In this document: in pieces, positions 21,538-61,337 of the stretch
How the letters are laid out: every line of letters starts with the position of its first letter
Position numbering within the stretch: the stretch's first letter is position 1
Assembly: GCA_024707145.1 (NCBI GenBank)
Contig: JANQAI010000008.1
Location: forward strand, 434,001-498,000
Length of the DNA stretch: 64,000 nucleotides
Direction: 5' to 3'
Source of the DNA: Magnetospirillum sp.
Lineage (GTDB): Bacteria > Pseudomonadota > Alphaproteobacteria > Rhodospirillales > Magnetospirillaceae
Position numbers and translations under genes: made by a program
The notes under the pieces: model-generated
The model's database searches: none
Told to the model about the DNA's origin: nothing
The model's input: the letters and a program-made list of their open reading frames with translations, nothing else

Positions 21538-23435
21538 ATGGACCTAGGGTCGGCCAAGCCGGCCGAGTTCGACGCCCGCCGCCTGGCGGCACTGTCGCTC
21601 GCGGCCATCGGCGTCGTCTATGGCGATATCGGCACCTCTCCGCTCTACACCCTGAAGGAATGCTTCAGCGGCGCGCACGGCCTGCCGGTCAACCAAGCCA
21701 ACGTGCTGGGCATCGCCTCGCTGATCTTCTGGGCGCTGATCATCGTCGTCACGGTGAAGTACGTGTTGTTCGTCATGCGTGCCGACAACCGTGGCGAGGG
21801 CGGCATCCTGGCCCTGCTGGCGCTGGCCATGAACGCCAGCCATGCCGACAAGCGGCGCATGGGGCCGGTCATGGTGCTGGGCCTGTTCGGTGCCGCCCTG
21901 TTCTTCGGCGACAGCATCATAACCCCGGCCATTTCCGTGCTGTCGGCCATCGAGGGACTGGAGGTGGCGTCGCCCCAACTCGAACGCTATGTCGAGCCGC
22001 TGACCCTGGCGGTGGTGACGGTGTTGTTCGTGGTGCAGAGCCGCGGCACCACCAGGATCGGCGCGGTGTTCGGCCCGGTGATGGTGCTCTGGTTCGGCGC
22101 CCTGGCCGTCTTCGGCGTCCTGGAGATCGTTGCCGAGCCGGCCATCCTGGCGGCGCTGAACCCGTTGCACGGCATGATCTTCGTAATCGACCACGGCTGG
22201 CACGCCTTCCTGGTGCTGGGCTCGGTGGTGCTGGCGGTGACCGGCGCCGAGGCGCTGTATGCCGACATGGGCCATTTCGGCAAGCGCCCTATCCAATGCG
22301 CCTGGTTCGCCGTGGTGCTGCCCGCCCTCGCCCTCAACTACTTCGGCCAGGCGGCCCTGCTGCTGGACGACCCCGGGGCGGTGCGCAACCCGTTCTACCT
22401 GCTGGTGCCGGACGTCCTGCTCTATCCCATGATCGGCCTGGCAACCTGCGCCGCCGTCATCGCGTCGCAGGCGGTGATCTCGGGCGCCTTCTCGCTGTCG
22501 CGCCAGGCGGTGCAGGCTGGGCTTCTCGCCCCGCCTGGAGATCCGCCACACCTCGGACGAAGAGGAAGGGCAGATCTACATCCCGCGCGCTAATTGGGGC
22601 CTGTTCGTCGGCATCGTCGTGCTGGTGCTGGGCTTCAAGTCCTCGTCCAACCTGGCGGCCGCCTATGGCATCGCCGTGACCGGCACCATGGCGTGCAGCA
22701 CCGTGCTGGCCCTGGTGGTGGCGCGCACCCTGTGGAACTGGTCGCTGCCCCTATGCCTGGGCCTGGGCGCCGCCTTCCTGGCGCTGGACCTCGCCTTCAT
22801 GGGGGCCAACCTGCTGAAGATTCCCGACGGCGGCTGGTTCCCGCTGGCGGTGGGCCTGGGCATGTTCCTGCTGATGGCGACTTGGAAGCGCGGCCGCCAG
22901 ATTCTGGCCAAGCGCCTGGCCGAGGATTCCATGCCCATCGACCTGTTCCTCGCCCGCCAGAAGGACAGCCCCACCCACCGGGTGGCCGGCACCGCCATCT
23001 ACATGACCGGCAACCCGGAAATGATTCCGGTGGCGCTGCTGCACAACCTCAAGCACAACAAGGTGCTGCATGAACGCGTCGTGTTCATGACGGTGGTGTT
23101 CGAGGACATTCCGCGCGTCTCCGCCAAGGACCGCGTGGTGGTCCAGGGGCTGGCGGAAGGGTTCTACAGCATCACCGTGCGCTACGGCTTCTTCCAGGAG
23201 CCCGATCTGCCCAAGGTGCTGCGCCTGTGCAGGGCCTTCGGGCTGGAGTTCGAGCCTGATGCAGACCTCGTTCTTCCTGGGCCGGGAGACGCTGATCCCG
23301 TCCATCCATCCCGAGATGGCCGAATGGCGGGAAAAATTGTTCGTGGTGATGAGCCGAAACTCGATCTCCGCCACCGACTTCTTCCACATTCCCGCCGGCC
23401 GGGTGGTCGAACTGGGAACCCAGGTTCAGCTCTAG
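21538..23435 (+). CDS. kup: Kup-type K+ uptake transporter 1, two frameshifts
   Basis: Joined across two one-base insertions, the gene encodes about 631 residues of a KUP/HAK potassium:proton symporter. It has [55 protein letters not shown] and [20 protein letters not shown], then a cytoplasmic tail ending [16 protein letters not shown]. The first break is at CAGGCTGGG (22513-22521), where CAGCTGGG restores the frame. The second is at GAGCCTGATG (23252-23261), where one base too many precedes [15 protein letters not shown]. The downstream paralogue is intact and shows the expected residues at both points. The tag CDS is kept because the rest is well conserved. Confidence 0.88.
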
Positions 23436-23451
23436 ACGCGAAGGCGTGTCC

Positions 23452-25371
23452 ATGTCCACCGCCGCCGGCACTCCCCATCTCGACGACGACCAGGCGCCGC
23501 CCCGCCACTCGCGCAACGTCTTCGCGCTGATGTTCGGCGCCATCGGCGTGGTGTTCGGCGACATCGGCACCAGCCCGCTCTACGCCATGAAGGAGACCTT
23601 CGCCGGCCCCCACCCGCTGGCGCTGGACCGCCTGCATGTGCTGGGCGTGCTGTCGCTGGTGTTCTGGGCGGTCACCATCGTGGTGTCCGTCAAGTACGTC
23701 ATCTTCATCATGCGCGCCGATAACCGCGGCGAAGGTGGCTCGCTGGCCCTGCTGGCCCTGGTCAGCACCGCCGCCCAGGGGCGGCCCAAACTGACGGCGC
23801 TGGTGGCTGCTCTGGGCATCTTCGCCGCCGCCCTGTTCTACGGCGATTCCATGATCACCCCGGCCATCTCCATCCTGTCGGCGGTGGAAGGCCTGGCGGT
23901 GGTGGCGCCGGCCCTGGACCAATGGGTGGTGCCGGCCACCATCGTCATCCTGGTGGTGCTGTTCGCCATCCAGGCCCACGGCACCGCCAAGGTGGCCGTG
24001 GTGTTCGGCCCCGTCATGACCTGCTGGTTCACCGTGCTGGCGGTGCTGGGCATCCGCAACATCGGCCTGGACCCCGGGGTATTGAAGGCGCTGTCGCCCC
24101 ATTACGCCATGATGTTCCTGGTGTCCGACGGCAAGCTGGGCTTCTTGGCGCTGGGCTCGGTGGTGCTGGCGGTGACCGGTGCCGAGGCGCTGTACGCCGA
24201 CATGGGCCATTTCGGCCGCCTGCCCATCCGCCTAGCCTGGTACATGCTGGTGCTGCCGGCGCTGATGCTCAACTATTTCGGCCAGGGCGCCCTGCTGCTG
24301 ACCCACCCCGAGGCGCTGGAGAACCCCTTCTTCCTGATGGCGCCGGCCTGGGCCGGCATCCCGCTGCTGATCCTGGCCACCTGCGCCACGGTGATCGCCT
24401 CGCAGGCGGTCATATCCGGCGCCTTCTCGGTGACCCGCCAGGCCATCCAGCTGGGCTACCTGCCGCGCATGACCATCATCCACACCTCGGAAAAGGAAAT
24501 CGGCCAGATCTACATCCCGATCCTCAACTGGACGCTGATGTTCTTCGTCATGGCCCTGGTCATCGGCTTCCGCACCTCGTCCAACCTGGCCTCGGCCTAC
24601 GGCGTGGCCGTCACCGGCACCATGGTCATCGACGCCTGCCTGATCGGCATGGTGATGGTGCTGATGTGGGGCTGGAACCGCCGCCGCGTGCTGATCCTGC
24701 TGGGCGTGTTCATGACGCTGGACGTGGCCTTCTTCCTGGCCAATGCCACCAAGATCCCCCATGGCGGCTGGTTCCCGCTGGCCATCGGCCTGACCATCTT
24801 CCTGCTGCTGACCACCTGGAAGCGCGGCCGCGCCCTGCTGATGGCCCATCTGCGCAAGGAAAGCATGCCGGTGGACCTATTCCTCACCTCGCTGTCCGAC
24901 CGGGTGGCGCGGGTGCCGGGCACCGCCATCTTCCTGACCGGCACCACCGAGGGCATCCCGCTGGCGCTGCTGCACAACCTCAAGCACAACAAGGTGATCC
25001 ACGAACGGGTGGTCATCCTGACCGTGTCCATGGAGGAGATTCCCGTGGTCCCGGCCAGCCGGCGCATCGAGACTCACCAGCTGGCTCCCGGCTTCCAACG
25101 CCTGATCCTGCGCTTCGGCTTCATGGAAGACACCAACATCCCCAAGACGCTGGCCCATGCCCGTTCGGACCAGCTGGGCTTCTTCTACGAGCCCATGAGC
25201 ATCTCCTACTTCCTGTCGCGCGAGACCATCATCCCCTCGTCCGAACCGGGCATGGCCCTGTGGCGCGAGCATCTGTTCGCCTGGATGGCGCGCTCGGCCA
25301 CCGGCGCCATGGATTTCTTCCACTTGCCGTCGAACCGCGTGGTCGAGCTCGGTAGCCAAGTCGAGATATGA
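23452..25371 (+). CDS. kup: Kup-type K+ uptake transporter 2
   Basis: The 639-residue protein has about 12 membrane segments in the first 440 residues and a soluble tail. Signature stretches are [80 protein letters not shown] and [20 protein letters not shown]. It should import K+ with H+ at the inner membrane. It begins 16 bases after kup1, and the pair looks like a tandem duplication with one transcript. ATG at 23452 is preferred to the GTG two codons earlier. Confidence 0.95.
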
Positions 25372-25393
25372 CTATAGTATTTATATACCCAGC

Positions 25394-25420
25394 CTAACCT
25401 TTTTTCCCTCCCAAGGTTAG
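25394..25420 (+). terminator. Hairpin between kup2 and the chemoreceptor gene
   Basis: CTAACCTT (25394-25401) and AAGGTTAG (25413-25420) form an eight-base stem with a pyrimidine-rich loop in an unusually A/T-rich gap. No U-run follows, so it may be a weak terminator or an operator. Confidence 0.35.
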
Positions 25421-25490
25421 TTGGAAGCGCATCCCCGGGCTGCTACCATCGGGCTACTCTGTCCGTTACAGTTGTGCAGTCGGGGGCCCC

Positions 25491-27173
25491 ATGACGTCCT
25501 TTATCACGCGCATGTCCATCACTCGCCGGATCGTGCTGATCAACGTGCTCGGCACCATCGTCAGCACGGCGGCCATCGTCTGGCTGGTGCTCGGCATCGT
25601 CCAGTCCAGCCTGGCCGCCCAGGCGGTGGAGCAGCAGAAGGTCAATCTGCGGGTCTTCCAGGAGTTGCTGCGCGCCAAGGGCAACGGCGACGCCCGCATC
25701 GTCGACGGCAAGCTGGCCTGGGGCGAATACGTGGTGGACGACAACCACGAGGTGGTGGACCTGCTGCGCAAGACCATGGGCATCGGCGCCAGCATCTTCA
25801 AAGGCGACGTGCGCGTCTCCACCAACGTCCTGACCAAGGAGGGCAAGCGCGGCGTCGGCACCAAGCTGGCCGCCGGCCCTATCTACGACACCGTGATGAA
25901 GGGCGGCAAGACCTACCTGGGCGAAGCCGACGTCATCGGCACCGTCTACCTGGTGGGCTACGAACCGGTGAAGGATGCCAGCGGCACCGTCATCGGCGCC
26001 GTCGTGACGGGCATGCCGCGCTCCACCTTCTTCGCCATGCTGGAGGAGATCCGCCTGCCGGTCATCGGCGTCGCCGCCGCCATCGGCGCCGTGCTGTGCC
26101 TGGTGGTCTTCCTGGTTACCCGCGCCCAGATGGCGGTGCTGGGCCGCCTGGCCAACGGCATGGAGCGGCTGACCGCCCAGGACTACACGGTGGAATTCGC
26201 CGACAGCGGTCGCAAGGACGAGATCGGCGCCATGACCCGGGCGCTGTCCGGCTTCCGCGATTCGCTGGCCCGCGGCGAGGAACTGGACCGCCAGCACCAG
26301 GCGGCCGAACAGGAGGCGGCGGCCAAGCGCGCCGCCATGGATGCGGCCACCCGCGCCTTCGCCGACAGCATCGAGCAGGTGGTCACCGAGGTGACCGCCG
26401 CCGCCTCGCAGCTACGTGGCAACGCCGAGGGCCTGTCCTCCACCGCCGACCGCACGCTGGACAAGGCGTCGTCGGTGGCGGCGGCATCGGACCAAGCCAC
26501 CGGCAACGTGGAGGCGGTGGCCTCGGCCACCGAGGAACTGACCGCCAGCATCGGCGAGATCAGCCGCCGCGTGTCCGAGGCGGCCGATGTGGCCAACCGC
26601 GCCGTCGGCGAGGCGGAGGAAACCAACACCATGGTGCGCGGCCTGGCCGAGGCCGCCGCCCGCATCGGCGAGGTGGTGGGGCTGATCAACGATATCGCCA
26701 GCCAGACCAACCTGCTGGCGCTGAACGCCACCATCGAGGCCGCCCGCGCCGGCGAGGCCGGCAAGGGCTTCGCCGTGGTGGCGCAGGAGGTCAAGAGCCT
26801 GGCCAACCAGACCGCCAAGGCCACCGAGGATATCCAGAACCAGGTGGCCTCCATCCAGAACGAAACCGACAAGGCGGTTTCCGCCATCAGCGGCATCACC
26901 CGCACCATCGACACCATTTCCCACATCACCACCACGGTGGCCTCGGCCGTCACCGAACAGGGGGCAGCCACCGAGGAAATCGCCCGTTCGGTGCAGCAAG
27001 CCTCGGCCGGTACCGCCGAGGTGTCGCGCAACATCGCCGACGTCACCCATGCGGCGCGCGATACCGAGCGCTCGGCCACGGACCTGCTGGGCTCGGCCGA
27101 AGCCCTGACCCAGCAATCCGACGCCCTGCGCGCCGAAGTGTCCCAGTTCCTGGATCAGGTACGGGCGGCCTGA
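25491..27173 (+). CDS. Methyl-accepting chemotaxis protein with Cache-type sensor
   Basis: The 560-residue transmembrane chemoreceptor has a first helix near residues 14-36. The periplasmic single-Cache-like domain (about 40-185) includes [20 protein letters not shown] and [21 protein letters not shown] second helix spans about 188-210, then a HAMP region with [20 protein letters not shown]. The long cytoplasmic coiled coil carries the hairpin tip [20 protein letters not shown], which contacts CheA/CheW. The ligand is unknown. No che genes adjoin it. Confidence 0.93.
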
Positions 27174-27302
27174 CGGAGGGGCGCCGGTCTGGGCGTCCCA
27201 CCTGAGGTGAGGAAACGGTCCGCAAGGGCAGCCGTCGTGCCCGAGCTCAATCCTCGCCTGTCAGGTTTGGCAGGGGCGAAAACGCCTCGGCGCCCTCTTT
27301 TT

Positions 27303-27408
27303 CCGTCAGCCCGCGAAAGCGGGGGCCATGTCAAATCGAGATCGGTTGTGTGGCGACAGATGCCATACTGGCGAAGGCATGCATTCCCGCTTTCGCGGGA
27401 ATGACGGG
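27303..27408. repeat. REP-like paired palindromes (GCGAAAGC family)
   Basis: CCCGCGAAAGCGGG and GCATTCCCGCTTTCGCGGGA lie about 65 bases apart, inverted relative to each other, between two convergent genes. They match the pair at 19139-19229. The remainder of the 256-base gap has no other visible feature. Confidence 0.8.
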
Positions 27409-27429
27409 GACGTTCGAGTTTTCCGCCCC

Positions 27430-27777
27430 CTACAACACCTTGCCGTCGTCGTCGTCCACAAGGCCGGCGACGCCGGCCAGCCAGCCGCGCAGGGCGCGCC
27501 GCTGCATCAGCTTGTCCTGGGCCGATGCAGGCAGGTCGGACAGCGAAAGGACGCCCCGGCGGATCAGCACCTCGATCAGATCCTCCAGCACCCGGATGAA
27601 CGACAGGTCCGAGGAGACGAAGGCATCGTCGCCCTCGGCAGCCTCGAAGCCATGCATGCGCGCGAGGAAGGCCTGGACCTCGGGGTCCTCCGGCGGCAGC
27701 GCCTCGGCCTCTTCGTCCAGGGGCTGTTCGGCCACGGCGACGACGCGGCCGCTTTCGTCACGGGTCACAAAAGGCAT
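27430..27777 (-). CDS. Conserved hypothetical acidic protein
   Basis: The 115-residue protein is rich in acidic residues. It starts MPFVTRDESGRVVAVAEQPL, has a helical centre (FIRVLEDLIEVLIRRGVLSL) and ends AGLVDDDDGKVL. Its opening resembles small Rhodospirillales proteins sometimes mislabelled as tryptophan-synthase-like. I see no catalytic motif. It lies downstream of the ATP synthase b gene but beyond the terminator, and an upstream frame extension is unlikely. Confidence 0.72.
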   Translation of the reverse strand: MPFVTRDESGRVVAVAEQPLDEEAEALPPEDPEVQAFLARMHGFEAAEGDDAFVSSDLSFIRVLEDLIEVLIRRGVLSLSDLPASAQDKLMQRRALRGWLAGVAGLVDDDDGKVL

Positions 27778-27868
27778 CTGCGCGCACCTCCCCGGATGCA
27801 GACTCAACCATAGCAAGACCGGGAGGGCGGCAAAACAGCCAACCCCGCCCCGTGCGCATCGGCGCAAA

Positions 27869-27905
27869 CGGAAACGGCCCGCTGCCGAAGCAGCGGGCCG
27901 TTCCG
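27869..27905 (-). terminator. Terminator of the Fo ATP synthase operon
   Basis: The 13-base perfect stem AACGGCCCGCTGC / GCAGCGGGCCGTT closes a CGAA loop on the plus strand, which is UUCG in the minus-strand transcript, an extra-stable tetraloop. Three further pairs extend it past a bulged base, and a short U run follows on the minus strand. Confidence 0.75.
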
Positions 27906-27928
27906 TAAGGAATGTCGGGCGAAGCGCC

Positions 27929-28462
27929 TTAGTGGAACTTGCGCGACAGGTCGGCGATGGCCGCATCCGCCAGAGCGGATTTCTGGGCCTCGGTGACCGA
28001 CTGGGCGAGAACGTCGCGGGCGGCGTTCACGGCCACGTCGACGGCCACGTTCTGAACTTCCTTGAGGGCCTGGGCCTCGGCCTGGGCGATGCGCTCCAAG
28101 GCCTGGGTCTCACGGCGCTTCACCGACTCTTCCAGGTCCTTGGCGGCCTGCTTGGACAGGCGCTCCGCCTCGGCCTTGGCGTGGGCGATGATCTCCTCGG
28201 CTTCCTTCATGGCGTCACGCTGCTTGCGCTGATAGGTCGCCAGCATTTCCTGGGCGTCCTCGCGCAGCTTGTGCGCTTCGTCCAGGCGAGCCTTGATCTT
28301 GGCGGCGCGGCCGTCCAGGGCGGCGGTGACCGCGCGGAAGACCGGCTTGAAGGCGAAGCCAACCACCAGCACGAAGGCGAGATACACCCACAGGTGTGGG
28401 TTGGTGTAGAAAGCGCCGGCGGCCTCGTGGCCGGCCTCGGCGGCGAAGGCGGTCGAAATCAT
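27929..28462 (-). CDS. atpF: ATP synthase Fo subunit b
   Basis: The 177-residue peripheral-stalk subunit has an N-terminal membrane helix ([20 protein letters not shown]) followed by a long charged coiled coil ([40 protein letters not shown]) to the C-terminus. In alphaproteobacteria a b/b' heterodimer links F1 to subunit a. It overlaps the b' gene by 4 bases and is the last gene of the operon. Confidence 0.95.
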
Positions 28463-28956
28463 TGGCCCTGCTCCTTCAGAGCGGTGGCGACGGCGGCCTC
28501 GACCTTGGCGGAATCGGCGGTGATGCCGACCAGCCGGGCGACGGCGGCACCGGCGATCTCGACGGCGACGTCACGGACGCCGGCCATGGCCTTGTCCTTG
28601 GCGACGGCGATGCGGGCCTCGCCGGCCTTGATCTGCTCGGCCAGCTTGGCGTTGAGCTCGCGGTTGCGCTCTTCCGCATGCTTGGCCAGGCGGTCGCCAG
28701 CCTCCTTGATGACGGCATGGGCGTGAGCCCGGGACTCGGCCAGCGCCTTTTCATAGGCGGCGACGGCAGCTTCGGCCTCGGCCTTCAGCTGAGCGGCCTT
28801 GTCGAGATTGTCGTCGATCTTGCGCTGACGTTCGTCAAGCACGGCGCCGATCTTCGGCAGGGCCACCTTCGCCATCAGGATGTACAGCGTGATGAAGGTG
28901 ATGGCCAGCCAGACGATCTGGGGCAGGAAGAACGCCGTTTGTTGGAACTGGGGCAT
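28459..28956 (-). CDS. atpG: ATP synthase Fo subunit b'
   Basis: The 165-residue paralogue of subunit b has the membrane helix [20 protein letters not shown] and the downstream motif [20 protein letters not shown], typical of b' in photosynthetic and alphaproteobacterial ATP synthases. A long coiled coil follows. It pairs with b in the peripheral stalk. It lies about 110 bases after atpE. Confidence 0.93.
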
Positions 28957-29064
28957 CCCGGTGCTCCAAAGCGTGGATATTACGGTCTTGGATCCGATCG
29001 GGGGACGGGCCGCGCAAGCCTGGGCCTGCGCGGTCCCGAACCATCCGAAGGAGTGTCCGCAATA

Positions 29065-29289
29065 TTAGGAGAAGAGAACCATCAGGGCGACGACCAGCGC
29101 GAACAGCGCGATAGCCTCGGTCACCGCGAAGCCGATCCAGCCGTACAGCTCGACATTGGCCTTGGCGGCGGGGTTGCGGCCAACGGCGGCGATCAGGTTC
29201 GACCAGATGTTACCCACACCGATACCCGAGCCGATCATGCCGATGGCAGCCAGGCCGGCACCGATGAACTTAGCAGCACTCGCTTCCAT
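29065..29289 (-). CDS. atpE: ATP synthase Fo subunit c
   Basis: The 74-residue proteolipid forms a two-helix hairpin: GAGLAAIGMIGSGIGVGNIW, the polar loop AVGRNPAAKANV, and LYGWIGFAVTEAIALFALVV. The proton-carrying glutamate is at about position 58 (VTEAIAL). It builds the rotor ring that couples proton flow to rotation. The absence of the Na+-binding Q/T pattern favours H+. Confidence 0.97.
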   Translation of the reverse strand: MEASAAKFIGAGLAAIGMIGSGIGVGNIWSNLIAAVGRNPAAKANVELYGWIGFAVTEAIALFALVVALMVLFS

Positions 29290-29364
29290 ATTCTTGCTCC
29301 TTCAGGAAGAAACCGAAAATCAAACCAAAAACAGCGGAAGACTCACCCCTAACCGGCAACCCGA

Positions 29365-30114: not shown

Positions 30115-30129
30115 CTTGGCCTCTCTCGC

Positions 30130-30484: not shown

Positions 30485-30542
30485 GAATGATGAGCCCCTT
30501 GAAAGTCCCCACCGCAATCACATCGGTGCCAAAAGCGCGGGC

Positions 30543-30571
30543 ACCATAAGGGGTGCGCCCACCCGTGTCAA
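30543..30571 (-). promoter_or_regulatory. Sigma-70-type promoter for the Fo operon
   Basis: On the minus strand TTGACA (30571-30566) is separated by 17 bases from TATGGT (30548-30543), about 60 bases upstream of atpI. This is the best consensus-like promoter seen in the window. The rest of the 219-base gap up to smc holds nothing else I can name. Confidence 0.65.
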
Positions 30572-30703
30572 GGCCGGAAACCGCCGATGGCAAGTGCTTG
30601 AGGAACATTGCGAATTTCGCCCGGCGTAGACGATTGGCGGGTTCACTTTGCCATAAAACCGCCTCACATCCCCTCCCCGAAGGGGTAGTCGCGCTCGGGT
30701 AGG

Positions 30704-33700
30704 TCATGCCAACACCGTATTTTCCCGGATGGCTTCCGCCTGCGCCAAATCCACCGACACCAGCTGCGACACGCCGCGTTCGGCCATGGTCACACCATAA
30801 AGCCGATCCATGCGCGCCATGGTCATGCGGTGATGGGTGACGATGAGAAAGCGGGTGCCCGTGCTCCCGGCGATCTTTTCCACCAGGGTGCAGAACCGAT
30901 CCACGTTGGCATCGTCCAACGGCGCGTCCACCTCGTCCAGCACGCAGATGGGAGCGGGATTGATCAGGAAAACCGCGAAAATCAGCGCCAGCGCGGTCAA
31001 CGCCTGCTCGCCGCCCGACAGCAGCGATAATTGCTGCAGCCTTTTCCCCGGCGGCGAGGCCATGATCTCCAGCCCGGCCTCCAGCGGATCGGCGGATTCC
31101 GTGAGCGCCAGATGGGCGCGGCCGCCGCCGAACAGGTGCACGAACAGGTCGCGGAAATGCTGGTCCACCTGCTCGAACGACGCCAGCAGGCGCTCGCGCC
31201 CCTCGCGGTTCAACTCGGCGATGGCGCCACGCAGCTTGGCGATGGCCTGGACCAGATCGTCCTTTTCGGCGCGCATGGCGGTCATGCGCTCCTCCAGTTC
31301 GGCCACTTCCTGTTCGGCGCGCAGGTTGACCGGGCCCATGGCGTCGCGCTCGCGGCTCAGCCGGTCCAGCCTGCGCTGCAACTCGTCCAGATCGGGCCGC
31401 TCGGCCTCCACCACTCCGGCCACTTCGCGCAGTTGCTCGGGCGTCATGTCCAGGCGTTCGCCGATGCGGCCGGCGACGGCGCGGCATTGCTGGTCGGCGG
31501 CCGACAGGGCCGCCTCGCGGCGGATGCGGTCCTCGCGGGCGCCCGCCAGGGCGGCCTCAGCGGCACGCATGGCGCGATCCGCCTCGGCCAGGGTCGCCTC
31601 GGCGGCGGCCAGGGCGTCGGCCGAGGCCTTGCGGTCCGCCTCGGCGGCGCCGAGGCGCTCCAGCAATTCGGCGCGGCGGCGGGCGAAGGTGTCGGGCGCC
31701 TGGGCCAGGCGCTCCAGGCTCCAGCATCACCGTCTCGCGGCGCTCCTCCAGTTCCTCCACATGGGCGCGCGCATTTTCCGAGCGGCGGCGCCAGGAGTCG
31801 ATGTCGCCGGCGATGGCATCCAGCCGGCGCTTGCGCTCGCCGGCCTCGCGGACGATACGGTCCAGGGCCGAGCGTGCCTCCACCAGGCCGGAACGGCGCT
31901 CGGCCAGGTCGGCGCGCAGGGCGTTGACCTTGTCGCGGCCCGCGTCGGCACTTTGCGGGAAGGCCGCCACGGTCTCGCGCGCCTCCAGGAAGTCGGCCTC
32001 GGCCTCCTCCAGGTCGCCGCGCGCCGCCCCGGCCTGCTCGGCCAGGCCGGCCAGCCGGGATTCGTGGGCAGCGAAGCGCTGGGCCAGCTTGCCATGCAGC
32101 TCACGCGCCTTGGCGGTCTCGGCCTCGGCCCGGCGCACGGCGTCCTTGGCGGCGCGCTCGTTCTCGGTAGCCTCCTCCACCGCCTGGGTGGCGTCCTCCA
32201 CCCGACCTTGCGCCTCCTCGACGCCCAGTTCGGCATCCTCCAGCCGCGCTTCCAGTTCGCGCAGGCGGTTGCGCTGGGCTAGGCGCAGGGCCATGGGGCT
32301 GGGCGCGCCGGCACGGGCGGTATAGCCGTCCCAGCGGATCAGGTCGCCGTCGCGGGTGACCAGACGCTGCCCCACCGCCAGATCGGCACGCAGCCGCTCG
32401 GCTTCGGCCGCCGAGGCCACCACCCCGACCTGGGACAGACGCCGCGCCAGGGCGGGCGGCGCGGTGACGAAGCGGGCCAGCGGGTCGGCGCCCGCGGGCA
32501 GAGCCGGCGCCTGCTCCAGCGGCGGCAGCGGCAGCCAGTGCAGCGGAGCGGCGGTGTCCAGCGAGGCAGTAAGGTCTTCGCCCAAGGCGGCGGCCAAAGC
32601 GGGTTCGTAGCCGGCGGCGGCGCTGACCGCGTCCAACACCGGCGGATGGTCGCCCGCCTTGGCCTGGGCCAGCACGTTGCCCAACGCCTCGGCCTCGGCC
32701 TTGAGGCGGGAACGAGCGGCGGCGGCGGCCTGGAAGGCGTCGCGGGCGGATTCCCGCGCGGCCATGGCCTGGACCCGCTTCCTGTCCCAGTCCTCGGCCT
32801 CGGCCCGGCTTTCCTCCAGGTATTCCAGCGCCGATTCCAGCTCCATCTCGGCGCCGGTCAATTCGGCGCGGTCGACGCCTTCCTGCTCGGCCTGGGCCTT
32901 CTGGGCCTCCACCTGCATCAGGCGGTCCTTCAGGCGGTCTCGGCGGTTCTCGGCATCGGTCAGGCGGCGCAAGGCGGCGGCGCGCTCGGCATCGGCGGCC
33001 GCCACCTCCTCCATCACCCGCGACAGCTCCTTCTCCACCTCGGCCACGCCCAGGGCGGCGGCTTCCACCGCCGCATCGGCGTCCTGGCGGGCGGCCTCCT
33101 CGCCCCCGGCCGCCTCGCGGATGGCTTCATCCTCGGCGGCGAGGCGGGCGACGGCACCCTCGGCGTCGGCGGCGCGGGCGTGTTCCTTCTGCAGGTCGCT
33201 GGCCGCCTGGTTGAGGCGCGCCTCCAGATCGCGCCGGGTCTCGGCGAGGCGCCCTTCCTCGCTTTCCAACTGCTCGCGCTCCACCAGCAGGCGCTGGAAG
33301 GCGCCCTGCACTTCGGCGTCGTGGCGGCGCAGGCTCGGGCAGGCCGGCGGCAACCTCGGCCTGGCGGGTGGCAGCCATGGCGGCCAGTTCGGTGGCCTCC
33401 TCGACCCGCAAATCCGCCTCCTTCATGGCGGCGCGGGCGGCGTCGATGGTAGCCAGCGCCTCCAGCCACTGCAGGTAGAGCAACTGGGCCTCGATGGCCT
33501 TGATGTGCTCGGAGATGGTGCGGTAGCGCGCCGCCTGCCGGGCCTGGCGCTGCAACCCCTTCAACTGCTCGTCCAGGGTGGCGAGCACGTCGTCCAGGCG
33601 CTCAAGGTTGCCCTCGGCGTTCTTCAGCCGCAGTTCGGCCTCGTGCCGGCGGGAATAAAGGCCCGAAATGCCCGCCGCCTCTTCCAGCAGGCCCCGGCGC

Positions 33701-34177
33701 TCGGACGGCTTGGCGTTGATCAGGGCGCCGACGCGGCCCTGGCTGACCAGGCCGGAGGACCGGGCGCCGGTGGCGGCGTCGGCGAACAGCAACTGCACGT
33801 CGCGGGCGCGCACGTCCTTGCCGTTGATGCGGTAGGCCGAGCCCTGGCCGCGCTCGATGCGGCGGATGACCTCCAGCTCGTCCAGGTCGTATTGCGGCGG
33901 GGCGGCGCGGCGGGAATTGTCCAGCGCCACCCCCACCTCGGCCAGGTTGCGGGCGGGGCGGCCGGCGGTACCGCCGAAGATGACGTCGTCCATCTCGCCG
34001 CCGCGCATCTGCCGCGCCGAGGTCTCGCCCATCACCCAGCGCAGGGCTTCGATCAGGTTCGACTTGCCGCAGCCGTTGGGACCGACCACCCCCGTCATGC
34101 CCGGCTCGATCAGCAGGCTCGGTGGCATCGACGAAGGACTTGAACCCCGACAAACGCAGCTTGGTGAACGAAATCAA
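30704..34177 (-). CDS. smc: Chromosome segregation protein SMC, three frameshifts
   Basis: Joined across three one-base insertions, the gene encodes about 1156 residues. It starts [20 protein letters not shown], then has Walker [13 protein letters not shown], a long coiled coil, a central hinge near [15 protein letters not shown], a second coiled coil, [16 protein letters not shown] and Walker [19 protein letters not shown] with ScpAB compacts and segregates chromosomes. The breaks are at 34114-34120, 33330-33336 and 31715-31721. Each reads CAGGCTC on the plus strand (GAGCCTG coding), and GAGCTG restores frame each time. SMC is normally essential or nearly so, so sequencing error is likelier than decay. 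Confidence 0.92.
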
Positions 34178-51409: not shown

Positions 51410-51495
51410 GCCCGCTCTCCCTGTTTGCCCTTCATTGCGGCCATGTGGGCGGGGGGCAAACGGGCAGCAATAATCCCCTCGGACGATGCGCTTCC

Positions 51496-52927
<1,432 letters not shown>

Positions 52928-52928
52928 A

Positions 52929-53684: not shown

Positions 53685-53844
53685 GTCCGTATCTCCGCGA
53701 TCTTCCGGGACAATAATGCCTATGATATCCCTCATTGGTGCGTCTTACGCACATGAAGCTTTGTTTGCCGCGCGCAATCATTGACCTGTCCCCACGCGGG
53801 GCTTAGTTTTCCGCTCTTTCCCCAACCGTCAGAGTACCTCGATC

Positions 53845-55431
53845 ATGTCCGACCTTTCCGACCTCGCCCGCAACGCCACCGCCTGGCCGTTCCAGGAAGC
53901 CAAGGCCCTGCTGGACGAGCGTTTGGCCGGCAAAACCCCGGACAAGGGCTTCGTGCTGTTCGAGACCGGCTACGGTCCGTCGGGCCTGCCGCATATCGGC
54001 ACCTTCGGCGAGGTGGCGCGCACCACCATGGTGCGCAACGCGCTGAAGGTGCTGGCGCCCGAGCTGCCCAGCAAGCTGTTCGCCTTTTCCGACGACATGG
54101 ACGGCCTGCGCAAGGTCCCGGACAACATCCCGAACCCCGAGATCGTGCGCCCCCACCTGGGCAAGCCGCTGACCCAGGTGCCCGACCCGTTCGGCACCCA
54201 CGACAGTTTTGGCGCCCACAACAACGCCCGCCTGCGCGCCTTCCTGGACGCCTTTGGCTTCGAATACGAATTCCAGTCGGCCACCGAATGGTACAAGGCC
54301 GGCAAGTTCGACGCCGCCAAGCTGCGCATCCTGGAATGCTATGACGAGGTCATCAACGTCATCCTGCCGACCCTGGGCGACGAGCGGCGCGCCACCTATT
54401 CGCCATTCCTGCCGGTGTGCCCCGAGACCGGCATCGTGCTGCAGGTGCCGGTGGTGGAGCGCGACGTCAAGGCCGGCACCATCGTTTACAAGCGCGACGA
54501 CGGCAAGCTGGTGGAGACCCCGGTCACCGGCGCGCACTGCAAGATGCAGTGGAAGGCCGACTGGGCCATGCGCTGGTACGCCTTGGGCGTGGATTACGAG
54601 ATGAGCGGCAAGGACCTGATCCCGTCGGTGGAGCTGTCGGGCCGCATCTGCCGCATCCTGGGCGGTACCCCGCCCATGAACCTGACCTACGAGCTGTTCC
54701 TGGACGACAAGGGCCAGAAGATCTCCAAGTCCAAGGGCAATGGCCTGGCGGTGGAGGACTGGCTGAAATACGCCCCCGACGCCAGCCTGGCCCTGTTCAT
54801 GTACCAGAAGCCCAAGGCGGCCAAGCGGCTGTATTTCGACGTGATTCCGCGCTCGGTGGACGACTACCTGACCTATCTCGGCAAGTTCGAGACCGAGGAG
54901 ACTACCAAGCGCCTGGACAATCCCGCTTGGCACATCCACAACGGCAAGCCGCCGAAGGAAGAGGCGCACCTGTCGTTCAGCATCCTGCTGAACCTGGCCT
55001 CGGTGTGCAATTCCGACGACAAGGCGGTGCTGTGGGGCTTCATCAAGCGCTATGCCCCCGGCGCCAGCCCGGAAACCGCCCCCATCCTGGACAAGCTGGT
55101 GGAAGGCGCCGTCGCCTACTACCAGGACTTCGTCAAGCCGGCCAAGAAGTACCGCGCCGCCACCGCCGACGAGGCTCAGGCCTTCGCCGACCTCAAGGCC
55201 AAGCTTCAGGCCCTGCCCACCGACGCCTCGGCCGAGGACCTGCAGAACGCCGTGTACGAGATCGGCAAGCGCGACGCCTTCCCCGAGCTGAAGGCCTGGT
55301 TCAAGGCCTGCTACGAGGTGCTCCTGGGCCAGGACCAGGGGCCGCGCATGGGCAGCTTCATCCAACTGTATGGCGTGGACAACACCATCGCCCTACTGGA
55401 CAAGGCCATCAACGGACAGTCCATGGCCTGA
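53845..55431 (+). CDS. lysS: Class I lysyl-tRNA synthetase
   Basis: The 528-residue class I enzyme is unrelated to the usual bacterial class II LysRS. It has the HIGH-type motif [19 protein letters not shown] near residue 45 and KMSKS-type [17 protein letters not shown] near residue 293. Other archaeal/alphaproteobacterial LysRS-I stretches are [19 protein letters not shown] and [20 protein letters not shown]. It charges tRNA-Lys. It is followed by a strong terminator. Confidence 0.96.
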
Positions 55432-55453
55432 GCCCGCGCCGGGTCGATCGAAG

Positions 55454-55489
55454 GGCCGCGTCCCACCGGGGGCGCGGCCTTTTTCTTTC
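55454..55489 (+). terminator. Rho-independent terminator after lysS
   Basis: GGCCGCG (55454-55460) pairs with CGCGGCC (55473-55479) and is followed by TTTTTCTTT. It lies 22 bases after the lysS stop. The rest of the 310-base gap before the globin sensor gene contains only the CGCAT cluster below and a ribosome-binding site. Confidence 0.88.
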
Positions 55490-55501
55490 CTATGAGAAAA
55501 A

Positions 55502-55528
55502 CGCATTTCGCGCATGCGCATAGCGCAT
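55502..55528 (+). promoter_or_regulatory. Cluster of CGCAT motifs upstream of the globin-coupled chemoreceptor
   Basis: CGCAT occurs at 55502, 55511, 55517 and 55524, including the palindrome ATGCGCAT (55514-55521). The dense repeat about 215 bases upstream of the chemoreceptor start looks like a regulatory site; the binding protein is unknown. Confidence 0.35.
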
Positions 55529-55741
55529 GTGTTCATGGACGGGCATCTGGCGGCCGGGAATATCTCTCGGTTCCCGGCCGCTTCCATGGCCTATGCCAAA
55601 CGGCCACCGCCATACATCTCCCGCTTGCATATGGTCCATTACAGCCTTCCCCCCTACTGGTTTTGCTTGAACGCGAGCACACCTTTCGCATTAGGCTGCA
55701 CGACAAGATGGGCGCAACCATCGCAGGGAGAGGACTACGTC

Positions 55742-57079
55742 ATGTACGACATGAACGAACGCCTGGACTTCATCCGTTTCTCTCAAGACGATCGCGAGGC
55801 GCTGCGCCGCTTCCGGGAAATCGTCGAGCCAAACATCGACGATATCCTTGAGGCCTTCTACTCGCACATTTCACGCCATCCCTCGGTCAGCCGCTTCTTC
55901 AGCAACGAACAGCACATGGCGCACGCCAAGAAGGCCCAGCGCACCCATTGGTTAAATCTTTTCTCGGCGACTTTCGACCAGAACTACTTCCATTCGGTGC
56001 GGGAGATCGGCCGTACCCATAGCCGCATCGGCCTGGAACCGCGCTGGTATATCGGCGGCTATTCCCTGGTGCTGGCCGATCTGCTGGCGGTGGCCGCCCG
56101 CATGCCCCGCCCCTGGCTGCTGAAATCCCAGGCGAAGCCATCGCTGGAGGCCACCCTGTCGGTCATCAGCCGGGCGGTCCTGCTGGACATCGAACTGGCC
56201 TTGTCGGTTTACCTGGACGAGGAAAAAGCCACCCATGACCGCTTCGTCGAGCGGATCGGCGACGAATTCAGTTCGTCGGTGCTGAACATCGTCACCTCAC
56301 TGAAATCCGAAGCCGGCACCATCGGCGACGACGCGACGCAACTGCACGTGGCCGCCAACGACGCCGGCGACCGCGCCCGTGCAGTCGCCGATGCCTCGCT
56401 GAGCGCCAGCGCCAACGTACAGATGGTCGCCTCGGCCATCGAGGAGATGGCCGTGTCCATCCGCGAAATCTCGTCGCACCTGTCGCGCCAAGTGAGCATC
56501 TCGACCACCGCCATGGAGAGCGGCCGCCACGCCGATGAGCAAGCCCACGGCCTGACCGACTGCGCCCAGCGCATCGGCGATGCGGTCAAGCTGATCAGCG
56601 ACGTGGCCGCCCAAACCAATCTGCTGGCGCTGAACGCCACCATCGAGGCGGCCCGCGCCGGCGAGGCCGGCAAGGGCTTCGCCGTGGTCGCCCACGAGGT
56701 CAAGGCCCTGGCCAACCAGGTGGCCCGCGCCACCGCCGAAATCGGCCAACTGGTGAATGAAGTGCGCTCGGTCGCCGTCGCCACCGCCGCCTCGATCCAG
56801 CAGGTGACCGGCACCATCGGCCAGTTGGACGAGGCCACCGGCGCCATCGCCACCGCCGTCGAACAGCAATCGGCGGCCACCCGCACCATCGCCGAGAACG
56901 TGCATCAGGCGGTGACCTGTACCGAGACGGTGACCAGCAACATCAGCCAGGTGCGCGACGTGGTGCAGATGACCGAACGATGCGCCGATTCCACCCGCTC
57001 CGGCGTCTCCGCCCTGGCGTCCCAGGCCTGCCACCTGCACACCGAGGTCAATGCCTTCATCGGCAAGCTGCGCGCTTAA
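55742..57079 (+). CDS. Globin-coupled chemotaxis sensor (HemAT-like)
   Basis: The 445-residue soluble receptor has an N-terminal protoglobin domain (about 1-165). Its haem-binding region [20 protein letters not shown] contains the proximal histidine and the family's I-G-L-x-P-x-W-Y signature. A linker leads to an MCP signalling domain with the tip [20 protein letters not shown]. No membrane helix is present. Relatives bind O2 at haem and steer aerotaxis. AGGGAG before ATG 55742 sets the start; upstream codons in the same frame look non-coding. Confidence 0.92.
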
Positions 57080-57121
57080 AGAGGCGTGCCCTAAATCTGC
57101 CTGCCGTTCCCGAGCTCTTTT

Positions 57122-57238
57122 CCGTCATCGCCGGGCTTGACCCGGCGATCCACGCGTCGCCGCACAAAATCCGTTGGGGATAGTGGGTTAGGCGGTTCCA
57201 CGTGGATGCGCGGATCAAGTCCGCGCATGACGAGAGGG
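57122..57238. repeat. REP-like paired palindromes (CGGGCTTG family)
   Basis: CGTCATCGCCGGGCTTGACC with CGGCGATCCACG and, inverted, GTGGATGCGCGGATCAAGTC with CGCGCATGACG form two facing hairpins about 50 bases apart. They lie between convergent genes. The remaining bases of the 321-base gap 57080-57400 show no gene. Confidence 0.8.
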
Positions 57239-57400
57239 ACGGAACCAACGAGCCAGATTTAAGGCTCGTTGCCCCAGCAGCATTCCTTCAAGGTCCTGGG
57301 CACGGCCCCGGGGGTGGCTTGCGTCGGGTGTAACTGGTATTGCAGCCCTTGGCCCCCAAGGGCGTCGCACCCGAACCGCGCCCGCCCGTCATATGGGATT

Positions 57401-58432
57401 TCACATCACCGGCGGCAGGTCGTAATCGTCGCGGAATACCGCGTTGCCGTTGTCGCGGATGACCGCCAGGCAGGCATCGACGACCGCCGGGTCGTAGGCG
57501 GTGCCCGCCCTGTCCTGGATTTCCTTGAGCGCCGCGTCCAGGCCCAGCGATGGCCGGTAGGGGCGGTGACTGCTGATGGCCTCGACCACGTCGGCGACCG
57601 CCAGGATGCGGGCCTCCAGGATGATCTCCTCGCCCCTCAGGCCGGCGGGATAGCCGCTGCCGTCCAGGCGCTCGTGGTGCTCGCGGATCATGCGGGCGAT
57701 GGGCCAGGGGAAATCCACCCCGTCGACGATCTCGGCGCCCACGTTGGGGTGGGACTTGATGACGCCGAAGGCGGCGTCGGACAGCTTGCCCGGCCGCGAC
57801 AGGAAGTCCGACGGCACGTTGATCTTGCCCAGGTCATGGATCAGCGCACCGGTATGCAGTCCCTCCAGCCGGTCGGCGTCCAGGCCCATGCGCTCGCCGA
57901 TGGCCTGGGCCAGCTGCGCCACCCGGCGCTGGTGGCCGGCGGTGTAGGGGTCGCGCATCTCCAGCGTCAGCGACACCGCCTTCACCGTCTGCAACAGCAC
58001 CCGCTTCATGCGCTCGGCGGCCTGCTGGCGCTCGCGCTCGATGGCCTTGCGCTCCACCGCGTAGGTGATGGTGCGCGCGATCAGCTGGCCGTCGCCCTGG
58101 CCCTTGACCAGGTAGTCCTGGCAGCCGCGCTTGACCGCCGCCACCCCCACCGCCTCGTCGTTGAGGCCGGTGAACACGATGACCGGCAGGTCGGGAGCCA
58201 CCCGCCGCATGGCGTCGATGGTGGCCACACCGTGGGAATCGGGCAGCGACAGGTCCAGCAGGACCGCGTCGGGAACGTGCTCCCGCAACCACTCGGCCGC
58301 CTCGCGCAGGTCCTGCTTCCAGGTGATCTCGAACCCGCCCACCTCGGCCAGCAGCAACTGCACCAGCCGGGCGTCGCCGGGGTTGTCTTCCACCATGAGC
58401 ACCTTGGTGGGCGGGGATGAGGCGTCTCGCAT
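57401..58432 (-). CDS. Response regulator with HD-GYP domain
   Basis: The 343-residue protein has a receiver domain (VLMVEDNPGDARLVQLLLAE; phospho-Asp in AVLLDLSLPDSHG) joined by a short coiled linker to an HD-GYP domain. The latter has AGHQRRVAQLAQAIG, GALIHDLGKINVPSDFLSRP, IREHHERLDGSGYPAGLRGE and ILAVADVVEAISSHRPYRPS. It should hydrolyse cyclic-di-GMP when phosphorylated. No kinase gene is adjacent. Confidence 0.93.
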   Translation of the reverse strand: MRDASSPPTKVLMVEDNPGDARLVQLLLAEVGGFEITWKQDLREAAEWLREHVPDAVLLDLSLPDSHGVATIDAMRRVAPDLPVIVFTGLNDEAVGVAAVKRGCQDYLVKGQGDGQLIARTITYAVERKAIERERQQAAERMKRVLLQTVKAVSLTLEMRDPYTAGHQRRVAQLAQAIGERMGLDADRLEGLHTGALIHDLGKINVPSDFLSRPGKLSDAAFGVIKSHPNVGAEIVDGVDFPWPIARMIREHHERLDGSGYPAGLRGEEIILEARILAVADVVEAISSHRPYRPSLGLDAALKEIQDRAGTAYDPAVVDACLAVIRDNGNAVFRDDYDLPPVM

Positions 58433-58654
58433 GGCGGGCTCCGCGCCGGGTCTTCTACTTCCAAAGGGTAGTGCCGAACGATGCCCAAGGCTAGTTCGTC
58501 CGCAGGAGGGGCAGGCATGCAGGAAAGCCGATGCGGCAGGGCGCGGCCATAACGAGCACTATGACTGAAGATATTGCCTTTTTGGTTGCATGTTTTACCA
58601 TCCCGCCAGTCCATCGGGACACAATCCGGACTTCCGTCCGAAAAGAGGGGGGAC

Positions 58655-60427
58655 ATGATGCTTCGTCATTTGGGGGCCGCGATGGTCATCGCGGCGAGTG
58701 CGGCGCTCGCCGCCTGCAATCCCACGCTGCCGCCGGAACAGAAGGTGGGCAGCGTGGTCTATGCCAGCCCGAGCTGGGACAAGAGCACCCGCGACGCCTT
58801 CTACTGGCGCCAGCAGGGGACGGTGATGATGCCGCTGGCCTGGTTCAAGGCGCTGGAGGAGCCCTCGGGCACCCAACTGATTTCCGACCGCTCGTACCTG
58901 TCGCGCTTTGGCTTCCTGGTGGACGACGTGCCCGAGGGCCAGTTGCCGGTGGGCTTCACCCCGTTCGAACTGAACGGCGTCACCACCCTGGGCCTGGGCT
59001 GCGCCGCCTGCCATACCGGCCAGATCAACTACCAGGGCGTGGGCATCCGCATCGATGGCGGCGGCGCCCTGCACAACTCGGCGCTGCTGACCGAGGTGCT
59101 GGGCAAGTCGGTCATGGCCACCGCCGCCGAACCCGAGAAGTTCGACCGCTTCGCCCACCGCGTGCTGGCCGACAAGTACGGGCCGGAAACCAAGAACCAG
59201 CTGAAATGGGGCTTCGACCAGGCCGCCGAGAAGGCGCTGAACCAGGGCGGCTATGAGGGGCTGCACAACGTCTACCCGGTGGAGGAGGGCTTCGGCCGCC
59301 TGGACGCCCTCCAGCGCATCGCCAACACCCTGCTGGGCGACGACCTGCACTACCAGGCCAACAAGAAGCAAGGCACCGCCCCGGTGCGCCTGCCGCACAT
59401 CTGGGATGCGCCCTATTTCGACTGGGTCCAGTACAACGGCTCGGTGCGCCAGCCCATGATCCGCAATGTGGGCGAGTCGCTGGGCGTCAAGGCCGCCACC
59501 AACTTCGTCACTCCCGCCGGCCTTCCGCCCAACGGGGCCGCCCTGTGGGCCTCGTCCATTCCGGTGCACGACCTGCACGCCACCGAGGAAGACCTGCGCA
59601 AGCTGAAGGCGCCGGTGTGGCCCAAGGAACTGCCGGCGGTGGACACCGTGCTGGCCTACACCAAGGGCAAGCCGCTCTATGACGAGAACTGCGCCGGCTG
59701 CCACGCGCCCCGCCCCTTCGCCCGCAAGGACTGGCCGGGCGTGACCTTCCTGCAGGTGCCGGTGGTGGACGTCAAGGAGGTGGGCACCGACGCCACCCTG
59801 CTGACCAACTTCCTGGAGCGCACCTACGACGCCACCAGCCTGGGCGTGGCGAAGCCCATCAGCGCCGGCGAGGGCCTGTGGGTGGTGACCGAGCAGATCA
59901 AGGCCTTCCAGTACCAGTACGGGGCCAAGCCGGTGCCCAAGGACAAGTGGGGCGAATACGACGGCTACGGCTGGCCCAACGAGGTGCGCGGCACCTGCGG
60001 CTACAAGGCCCGACCGCTGGGCGGCATCTGGGCCAACCCGCCCTTCCTGCACAACGGCTCGGTGCCCACCGTCTACGACCTGCTGTCGCCGGTGTCCGAG
60101 CGTCCCGATGTGTTCTGGGTGGGCAACCGCGAATACGACCCGGTAAAGCTGGGTTACATATCGACGGAGTTTTCCGGCGCCACCCGCATCGACACGGGTG
60201 TCATCGGCAATTCCAACCGGGGCCACGAATTCGCCGACAGCGACCGCCCTGGCGTCATCGGCCGGGCGCTCAAGCCCGAGGAGCGCCTCGCCATTATCGA
60301 ATACCTGAAGGTGCTGGCCGAGGATCCCAGGCAGCCGACGCGCAAGGCCGACGAATATGCCGGCGACAACCGCTATCCCTGTTGGGAAATGAAAATCTAT
60401 TGGGGTCCCAACCCGCCCAAGGGGTAA
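58655..60427 (+). CDS. Dihaem c-type cytochrome lipoprotein, RoxA-like
   Basis: The 590-residue exported protein has a lipoprotein signal (IAASAALAAC, cysteine near residue 21) and two CXXCH haem sites: LGLGCAACHTGQINYQG near residue 115 and DENCAGCHAPRPFARKD near residue 350. The intervening VRLPHIWDAPYFDWVQYNGS, VRQPMIRNVGESLGVKA and the late PLGGIWANPPFLHNGSVPTV are shared with RoxA-type dihaem oxygenases and MauG-like cytochromes. Substrate and activity are unknown. GAGGGGGGA lies upstream of ATG 58655. Confidence 0.85.
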   Translation: MMLRHLGAAMVIAASAALAACNPTLPPEQKVGSVVYASPSWDKSTRDAFYWRQQGTVMMPLAWFKALEEPSGTQLISDRSYLSRFGFLVDDVPEGQLPVGFTPFELNGVTTLGLGCAACHTGQINYQGVGIRIDGGGALHNSALLTEVLGKSVMATAAEPEKFDRFAHRVLADKYGPETKNQLKWGFDQAAEKALNQGGYEGLHNVYPVEEGFGRLDALQRIANTLLGDDLHYQANKKQGTAPVRLPHIWDAPYFDWVQYNGSVRQPMIRNVGESLGVKAATNFVTPAGLPPNGAALWASSIPVHDLHATEEDLRKLKAPVWPKELPAVDTVLAYTKGKPLYDENCAGCHAPRPFARKDWPGVTFLQVPVVDVKEVGTDATLLTNFLERTYDATSLGVAKPISAGEGLWVVTEQIKAFQYQYGAKPVPKDKWGEYDGYGWPNEVRGTCGYKARPLGGIWANPPFLHNGSVPTVYDLLSPVSERPDVFWVGNREYDPVKLGYISTEFSGATRIDTGVIGNSNRGHEFADSDRPGVIGRALKPEERLAIIEYLKVLAEDPRQPTRKADEYAGDNRYPCWEMKIYWGPNPPKG

Positions 60428-60442
60428 GACCGCGATGAAAGG

Positions 60443-60465
60443 TCCCCCGCCCAAACGGCGGGGGA
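60443..60465. terminator. Hairpin between convergent cytochrome and lysR genes
   Basis: CCCCCGCC (60444-60451) pairs with GGCGGGGG (60457-60464) around a CAAAC loop, with an outer T-A pair. It has no U-run but sits between two converging genes and could stop both transcripts. Confidence 0.5.
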
Positions 60466-60469
60466 TCCC

Positions 60470-61337
60470 CTATTCCGCCGCCTGCGCCCGCCCACCGGTC
60501 ACCATGGCCTTGAAGGCGCGCATGGCGCCGGTTTCCACCGCGTCCCGGTGCTGGATCATCCAGGTATCCACCTGCCCGTCGGCGATGGGCAGGGCGACGA
60601 TCTGGCCGGCATGCTGGGGACGTTCGACGATGCTGCGCGGCAGCAGGCTGACGCCCATGCCGGCGGCGACGCAACCCAGCAAACCATCCAGGGTGCCGAA
60701 TTCCATGATCCGCCGCGGCGGCTCGCCACGGGCGCGCAGCCAGGCCTCGGTGCGGACGCGGTAGGCGCAGCCCGAGCGGAACACCAGCATGGCCTTGGTG
60801 TTGGCCGCCTCCACCGCGCGGATGCCGGCGGGCGCCGCCAGCACCAGTTCCTCGCTGAACACCGGCACGCCGTCCAGGCGGTCGTGCCGCACCGGACCGA
60901 CGACGAAGGCGAAGTCCACCCGGCGGTCCAGCACCGCCTGCATCTGCTCCTCGGTGGTGCCGGTGGACAGCGTCAGCGTCACCTTGGGATGGTTCTGGTG
61001 GAAGGCCGCCAGCAACGTCGGCAGCCGCACCGCCGCCGCGGTTTCCAGGGAGCCCAGGCGCAGCATGCCGCCTTCTCCCACCGCCTCGCGCACGGCGTCG
61101 CGGGCCTCCGCCGTCAGCGCCAGGATGCGCTCGGCGTAATCCAGCAGCAGGCTCGCCGGCCGGGGTCAGGCGCATGCCGCGCGGCTCGCGCAGGAACAGA
61201 CGGGCGCCCAGCTCCTCCTCCAGCTTGCGTACCCGCGCCGATACGTTGGAGGGAACCGAATGCACCTGCTCGGCCGCCGCCCCCACCGAACCGGTGTGGG
61301 CCACGGCATGGAACAGCCGAAGCGATGCGGTATCCAT
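60470..61337 (-). CDS. LysR-family transcriptional regulator, frameshifted
   Basis: The N-terminal frame gives the HTH (SLRLFHAVAHTGSVGAAAEQ, RVRKLEEELGARLFLREPRG, MRLTPAGE). The other frame gives the effector domain (GGMLRLGSLETAAAVRLPTL, DFAFVVGPVRHDRLDGVPVF, MEFGTLDGLLGCVAAGMGVS). They join at CAGGCTC (61148-61154 plus strand; GAGCCTG coding): GAGCTG instead restores LTPAGELLLDYAERI and about 288 residues. It resembles regulators of YbfB-type MFS transporters, and the divergent gene is exactly such a transporter. Confidence 0.88.

Follow-up and report, generated by a model that had tools for sequence, protein, structure and literature searches.

One-base insertions inside AGCT words of a Magnetospirillum assembly as probable consensus errors, with a C5 methyltransferase as candidate source

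Three conserved genes, kup1, smc and lysR, lose their reading frame at six places in a 64,000-nucleotide stretch of a Magnetospirillum sp. genome (the window, which is positions 434001 to 498000 of contig C3, JANQAI010000008.1), and at each place the frame is restored by taking one base out of a word built around AGCT. Why should separate genes break at one and the same word? The first-pass annotation had argued for a motif-linked error rather than gene decay and had named a modified AGCT site as a possible cause. The window belongs to a 15-contig, 5.14 Mb genome (G000; completeness, 91.57%; contamination, 6.31%) from an environmental alphaproteobacterium, and the closest named relative of its kup among the matches listed is Paramagnetospirillum kuznetsovii, at 66% identity. 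The explanation that we favor, with a probability of roughly 0.6, is that these are nanopore consensus errors at modified AGCT and that a C5 methyltransferase of the genome is the source of the modification.

All six 7-mers stand where the first-pass annotation had placed them (Table 1); those in kup1 and lysR were read directly, and those in smc were located by alignment coordinates. Orthologues bore out one extra base at both kup1 words and at all three smc words. The two kup1 words were compared with a single orthologue, from the congener G008, whose aligned stretches at the two words are 87% and 85% identical. For smc, a plus-strand search of the 12 congeners that made up the comparison set gave alignments for 7 of the 12 fetched loci, and the other five, which lie on the minus strand, were skipped. 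The smc frame is intact at 1160 to 1171 amino acids in 12/12 genus relatives, compared with 621 amino acids in the window. At lysR, the helix-turn-helix and substrate-binding domains are in two different minus-strand open reading frames (ORFs); the frameshift claimed there is probable from these split domains and from a switch called by the frame model. A further site, at 16543, is absent from the list in the first-pass annotation.

Table 1. Words with an extra base and the adenine methyltransferase gene of the window (window positions)
Feature	Position	Strand	Evidence
kup1, first word, CAGGCTG	22513..22519	+	One base over G008 orthologue; insertion switch called at 22530
kup1, second word, GAGCCTG	23252..23258	+	One base over G008 orthologue; no switch from the frame model
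smc, CAGGCTC (read on + strand)	31715..31721	-	Extra base versus 7/7 relatives; insertion switch at 31718, filtered out
smc, CAGGCTC (read on + strand)	33330..33336	-	Extra base versus 7/7 relatives; insertion switch at 33333, retained
smc, CAGGCTC (read on + strand)	34114..34120	-	Extra base versus 7/7 relatives; model called a deletion at 34117, filtered out
lysR, CAGGCTC (read on + strand)	61148..61154	-	Insertion switch at 61151, filtered out; domains split; frame evidence only
Possible seventh case	16528..16558	-	Insertion switch at 16543, retained; adjacent C/G-flanked AGCT has an extra base
CcrM-like adenine methyltransferase	51561..52658	+	NCBIfam CcrM, 636 bits, under the 830-bit cut-off; PF01555 and RAMA

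Beyond the window, frame switches were called in an 858 kb sample (17% of the genome) with a three-periodic coding model that allows frame-switch transitions and was trained on the long ORFs of G000. Calls at most 20 nucleotides from the stop of either frame were removed, mainly to discard gene overlaps and at the cost of true window sites, which left 174 of 378 raw calls (82 insertion-like and 92 deletion-like). Judged by the window, the frame-only model is poorer than the orthologues. Its insertion calls fell on, or no more than about 15 nucleotides from, 4/6 words, and the filter kept 2 of those four calls. In the sample, AGCT flanked by C or G and carrying one extra inner base was found at 40/82 insertion switches, where a fraction of 0.014 would be expected, and at 3/92 deletions. 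When no word was preset, the strongest 7-mer at insertions was CAGGCTC, which lay within 15 bases of 34/82 (0.35 expected). Within 12 bases of the 82 insertions, CAGGCTC occurred 33 times, CAGGCTG 5 times (0.64 expected), CAGCCTC once, GAGGCTC/GAGCCTC once, and A/T-flanked AGCT with an extra base 0 times (0.73 expected); at the same distance, CAGGCTC occurred at 1/92 deletion switches. A further 303 kb of G000 gave CAGGCTC at 10/39 insertions. The first-pass annotation had staked its reading on a higher insertion rate at AGCT than elsewhere, and the sample has that excess. Its choice of word held for the core and proved too broad at the flanks, which are both C or G, mostly in CAGCTC. The deletion switches favored runs of five C or G (18/92 versus 3.5 expected), and homopolymer deletions accompany the AGCT insertions as they do in nanopore-only assemblies. 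Contaminant contigs that could serve as an internal control were not evident, as the tetranucleotide correlation of ten further contigs with the sample was 0.952 to 0.995; one stretch of contig C8 had a correlation of 0.921.

The effect is partial, as the annotation had supposed. The sample holds 158 CAGGCTC words, 48 of them at an insertion switch, along with 626 intact CAGCTC words. A relative could be aligned at 9/48 hit words and 27/110 other CAGGCTC words. Among words with an aligned relative, one base more was carried by CAGGCTC in 14/36, CAGGCTG in 1/66 (the kup1 word), CAGCTC in 2/106 and CAGCTG in 2/76. One of the 48 called hits was contradicted by its orthologue. The 48 are nonetheless an undercount, because 6/27 alignable CAGGCTC words without a called switch also had one extra base (four of them clearly at the word, by eye); the other 21/27 were in register. 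Inspected by eye, the relatives mostly have X-Leu at sampled CAGGCTC words, most commonly Glu-Leu, consistent with GAGCTG as the underlying word. A site-conditioned likelihood test that used 120-base arms gave noisy results, scoring about 2% of intact words and 4/41 GAGGCTC words as insertions, and CAGGCTC was still prominent in it (20/158).

Hit words also differ from intact ones in their surroundings. An A stands directly before or after 0/48 hit words, compared with 15% (before) and 12% (after) of intact words, and a flank score separates the two groups with a leave-one-out area under the curve (AUC) of 0.85. The share of words hit was 9/23 at scores of 2 to 3 and 1/3 above. Between CAGGCTC words without a switch and intact words, the AUC was 0.49, and their flanks are alike. 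Flanked CAGGCTC numbers 348 in the whole G000 genome and at most 110 in each of 54 other genomes of the family; the flanked CAGCCTC control in G000 numbers 83. In density, G000 is first of 385 genomes of the class at 68 per Mb, followed by G341 at about 56 (genome sizes rounded); in 79 kb of G341, to which the G000 model was applied, 0/2 insertions lay at the word. Word avoidance proved an unhelpful clue, since CAGCTC is undepleted in G000 (626 observed versus 480 expected).

A second affected assembly is that of Neorhizobium sp. EC2-8, examined because its plasmid is the best plasmid match, in two pieces, of the C5 methyltransferase of G000. In 472 kb of it, the leading 6-mer at the insertions called by the frame model was AGGCTC (9 versus 0.42 expected), C/G-flanked AGCT lay at 9/40 insertions, and GAGCTC was among the hit words. 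A word scan with nothing preset put the identical word on top in these two assemblies, which come from different orders. Record NZ_CP147997.1 has a stretch of about 62 kb at both of its ends (about 31 to 62200 and 222001 to 284164) at 99.9% identity, with feature names recurring in both copies; it is probably one stretch assembled twice in an untrimmed circular assembly. The two copies differ by 32 one-base differences, 10 longer gaps and 7 mismatches. Five of the 32 one-base differences, each of them with C/G flanks, fall inside AGCT, where 0.33 would be expected (P = 2.7e-5); 23 of the remaining 27 alter runs at least three bases long. A true duplication would leave this bias toward homopolymers and AGCT unexplained.

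We regard it as practically certain that the extra bases are a consensus artefact and not decay, because of the orthologues, the conservation of the genes, the number of hits and the homopolymer errors that accompany them. That an assembled base is wrong is shown in Neorhizobium by two copies of one stretch and in G000 by orthologues only. Real frameshifts, whether by gene decay, by a mutator or by programmed frameshifting at CAGGCTC, have nothing beyond the assembled letters in their favor and are very improbable: smc alone would have been struck three times while every congener kept it whole, the called hits would all have accumulated in 17% of one genome, the Neorhizobium copies disagree with each other at such words, and the CAGGCTC words aligned in register indicate that the word alone signals nothing. 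On this point the first-pass annotation was right to prefer a motif-linked error.

What makes AGCT prone to the error? Modification of the word is the likely cause, and the controls speak to it. Three frameshift-rich rhizobial plasmid samples had C/G-flanked AGCT at 1/74, 1/7 and 0/6 insertions, or 2/87 together (Fisher P = 5e-4 versus Neorhizobium and 1.6e-13 versus G000), and a homologue of the C5 methyltransferase was not found in the sampled plasmid stretches of these three controls, their chromosomes being outside the search. Two congeners had no insertions at the word (G001, 0/41 in 821 kb; G002, 0/9 in 400 kb). The rival view, that CAGCTC in GC-rich flanks by itself misleads the basecaller or polisher and that modification plays no part, would agree with the strong flank dependence and with the sparing of A/T-flanked AGCT. 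Such an error is nevertheless improbable given the 2/87 in frameshift-rich controls and the behavior of a GAGCTG site in E. coli rplR. That site has a favorable flank score of 1.01, a bin in which 13/53 words were hit in G000, and its 70-base stretch is at 99% identity or more, a level that one inserted base would undercut, in at least 5369/5375 genomes, whose nanopore-only share is not given. An E. coli secA site that scored higher on its flanks varied too much to serve as a test (99% or more was reached in 3602/5374 genomes and, for its control stretch, in 2707/5374). Two side observations came from these genomes. The insertion switches of the frameshift-rich plasmid CP087973.1 favor CGCGCG (7 versus 0.96 expected) and AGCGC (14 versus 5.57), perhaps another word-linked error. 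CTGCAG, observed versus expected, stands at 2/280 in G001, 0/25 in G012, 52/248 in G002 and 742/941 in the G000 sample, and its scarcity in the first three hints at a restriction history not common to the G000 species.

Next, we looked for an enzyme. The methyltransferases of G000 are the CcrM-like enzyme of the window, a type III Mod with Res, a type I HsdM with HsdS and HsdR neighbors, and one C5 enzyme; nothing of the Eco57I type scored over cut-off, and nothing of the D12 type was found. The CcrM-like enzyme is a different one, outside the proposed cause. The type III Res gene (L181:15999-18510, contig C14) is apparently split over two overlapping minus-strand frames, the first piece of which matches ResIII. 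The C5 methyltransferase (442 amino acids; contig C8, about 153.5 to 154.9 kb) matches PF00145 at 196.7 bits (cut-off, 22) and NCBIfam dcm at 197.8 (cut-off, 100.65). It is followed by a GHKL ATPase gene (PF13589, 2.3e-14) and then by a Z1 gene whose product matches MzaC (PADLOC) at 1.4e-25. After the Z1 gene comes a 579-amino-acid protein (L119:6849-8588, contig C8) that has no Pfam match and does not resemble the PD-(D/E)XK proteins encoded in the Rathayibacter and Neorhizobium cassettes. The unrecorded AGCT methyltransferase that the first-pass annotation had thought possible thus has a candidate, and its AGCT target is suggested by the signature common to G000 and the carrier of its homologue.

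In C5 methyltransferases, specificity usually diverges in the C-terminal half. The Neorhizobium homologue is 56% and 54% identical in its two pieces (55% overall), the C-terminal half included, and since the Neorhizobium cassette is otherwise different, the methyltransferase is the common part. Related proteins are encoded in the same gene order on plasmids of Rathayibacter festucae and Hymenobacter, whose stretches are too short to test for the signature (34 kb with 1 insertion, and 41 kb with 0/3 insertions at the word). The plasmid matches of the enzymes carry generic annotation names. Among 385 genomes of the class, three others have the C5 enzyme at an E value of 1e-60 or better.

The candidate C5 enzyme of G000 is, in our judgment, somewhat more probable than not to be the source of the modification. 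Modification by another enzyme is unlikely, be it the type III Mod with asymmetric CAGCTC as its word, the type I system, or an N4-methylcytosine (4mC) enzyme for AGCT that is missing from the assembly. Type III recognition words are asymmetric, CAGCTC predominates among the hit words, and both systems are present in G000. Palindromic words are hit too, however (CAGCTG in G000 with one orthologue-backed case, and GAGCTC in Neorhizobium), so the hits suit a type II enzyme for AGCT better than a type III one for CAGCTC, and the 472 kb of Neorhizobium sequence searched held no Mod or HsdM homologue, only the C5 enzyme. AGCT-cored 4mC motifs have been described in other microbes, one of them with no enzyme found in that account (PMC6329791), which is to the credit of the missing-enzyme version. 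We set BREX aside as a source on its word pattern because known BREX words have A as their fifth base.

The sequence of events would then be as follows. A long-read, most likely nanopore-only, assembly of a Paramagnetospirillum relative would carry consensus errors; AGCT would be modified, most likely as 5-methylcytosine on both strands, by the C5 methyltransferase encoded before the GHKL ATPase and Z1 genes; and the basecaller would read AGGCT or AGCCT in place of the modified word where its neighbors are C or G and the surroundings are favorable. Only some sites would be hit because the misreading depends on flanks and surroundings. CAGCTC/GAGCTG is hit most, probably because an error in a non-palindromic word would be the same from both strands and would survive consensus. 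We infer the modification and its type, the nanopore platform and the responsible enzyme; the controls, the Neorhizobium copies and the common C5 enzyme all support the modified site that the first-pass annotation had proposed.

Several observations weigh against this explanation. The frame-model background is high, with 20.3 retained switches per 100 kb in G000, 7.5 in G002 and 13.4 in G001. Only about 7% of CAGCTC words were called as hit, and the sparing of A/T-flanked AGCT means that an AGCT enzyme would also need a strong context effect in the basecaller. The contrast with the controls rests on 9 Neorhizobium events, two control samples each have one insertion at the word, and the controls come with platform and methylation status not given and with an enzyme search of sampled plasmid stretches only. 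In Neorhizobium, the enzyme search covered 472 kb with the chromosome outside it, and the cassette differs, with a DUF262 gene in the place of the GHKL ATPase and a Z1 protein only 23% identical. The genome G352, the one sampled among the three other carriers in the class and with a 73%-identical enzyme, had 0/5 insertions at the word and a baseline switch rate, a result that is uninformative if the sequencing of G352 was accurate. Finally, the modification errors reported in Listeria are mismatches, not insertions (PMC10687267).

Modified AGCT as the source of consensus errors is in keeping with published cases. Dcm motifs accounted for about 70% of nanopore consensus errors with then-current default models (PMC6591954), Listeria had errors at GCAGC and GCTGG, with GCAGC as the word in Mza-bearing Listeria (PMC10687267), and in several species only some occurrences of methylated words were affected (PMC12392509). 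Like these modification-mediated errors as described there, ours concern one short word, are partial, survive polishing and are probably linked to a methyltransferase; they differ in being one-base insertions inside AGCT, at a modification deduced from the assembly. AGCT insertions were unreported in the titles and abstracts found by literature search. AluI-type methyltransferases have an AGCT core. AGCT is itself a known methylated word (PMC6329791, PMC10689673), and the 4mC motif of Nitrosoarchaeum, with an M.Mma5219II-like enzyme (PMC6329791), has the same four-base core, whereas the G000 candidate is a C5 enzyme (PF00145). The G000 cassette resembles Mza (PADLOC; PMC10687267) in having C5 methyltransferase and GHKL ATPase genes beside an MzaC-like Z1 protein, but its ATPase and 579-amino-acid protein have no PADLOC match even at E values up to 1, and the reported Listeria word is GCAGC; we dropped a Mza-like label on account of these two proteins. 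In CglI/NgoAVII, too, a C5 enzyme goes together with a helicase-like protein that bears Z1 (PMC4267653), but with a PLD-family nuclease and the target GCSGC; in G000 the gene between methyltransferase and Z1 is the GHKL ATPase, and no PLD-family nuclease was found there or in the 579-amino-acid neighbor, which lacks Pfam matches. Further background is given in PMC11649196 and PMC9262707. The AGCT case is a known kind of error together with one fresh, testable prediction, namely, that the C5 enzyme marks AGCT.

For G000, these results mean that the genes called broken here, smc included, are not to be taken as pseudogenes and that the gene content of the genome is probably understated, which is also a warning for the annotation of long-read-only genomes. 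If methylation is the cause, deposited assemblies hold a readable trace of the methylome. More tentatively, the C5 methyltransferases of this branch could all modify AGCT, in G000, in Neorhizobium EC2-8 and, judging from similarity, where they are encoded next to GHKL and Z1 genes on the Rathayibacter and Hymenobacter plasmids. If so, frameshift scars in unpolished public long-read assemblies could be mined, without reads, for the targets of uncharacterized methyltransferases.

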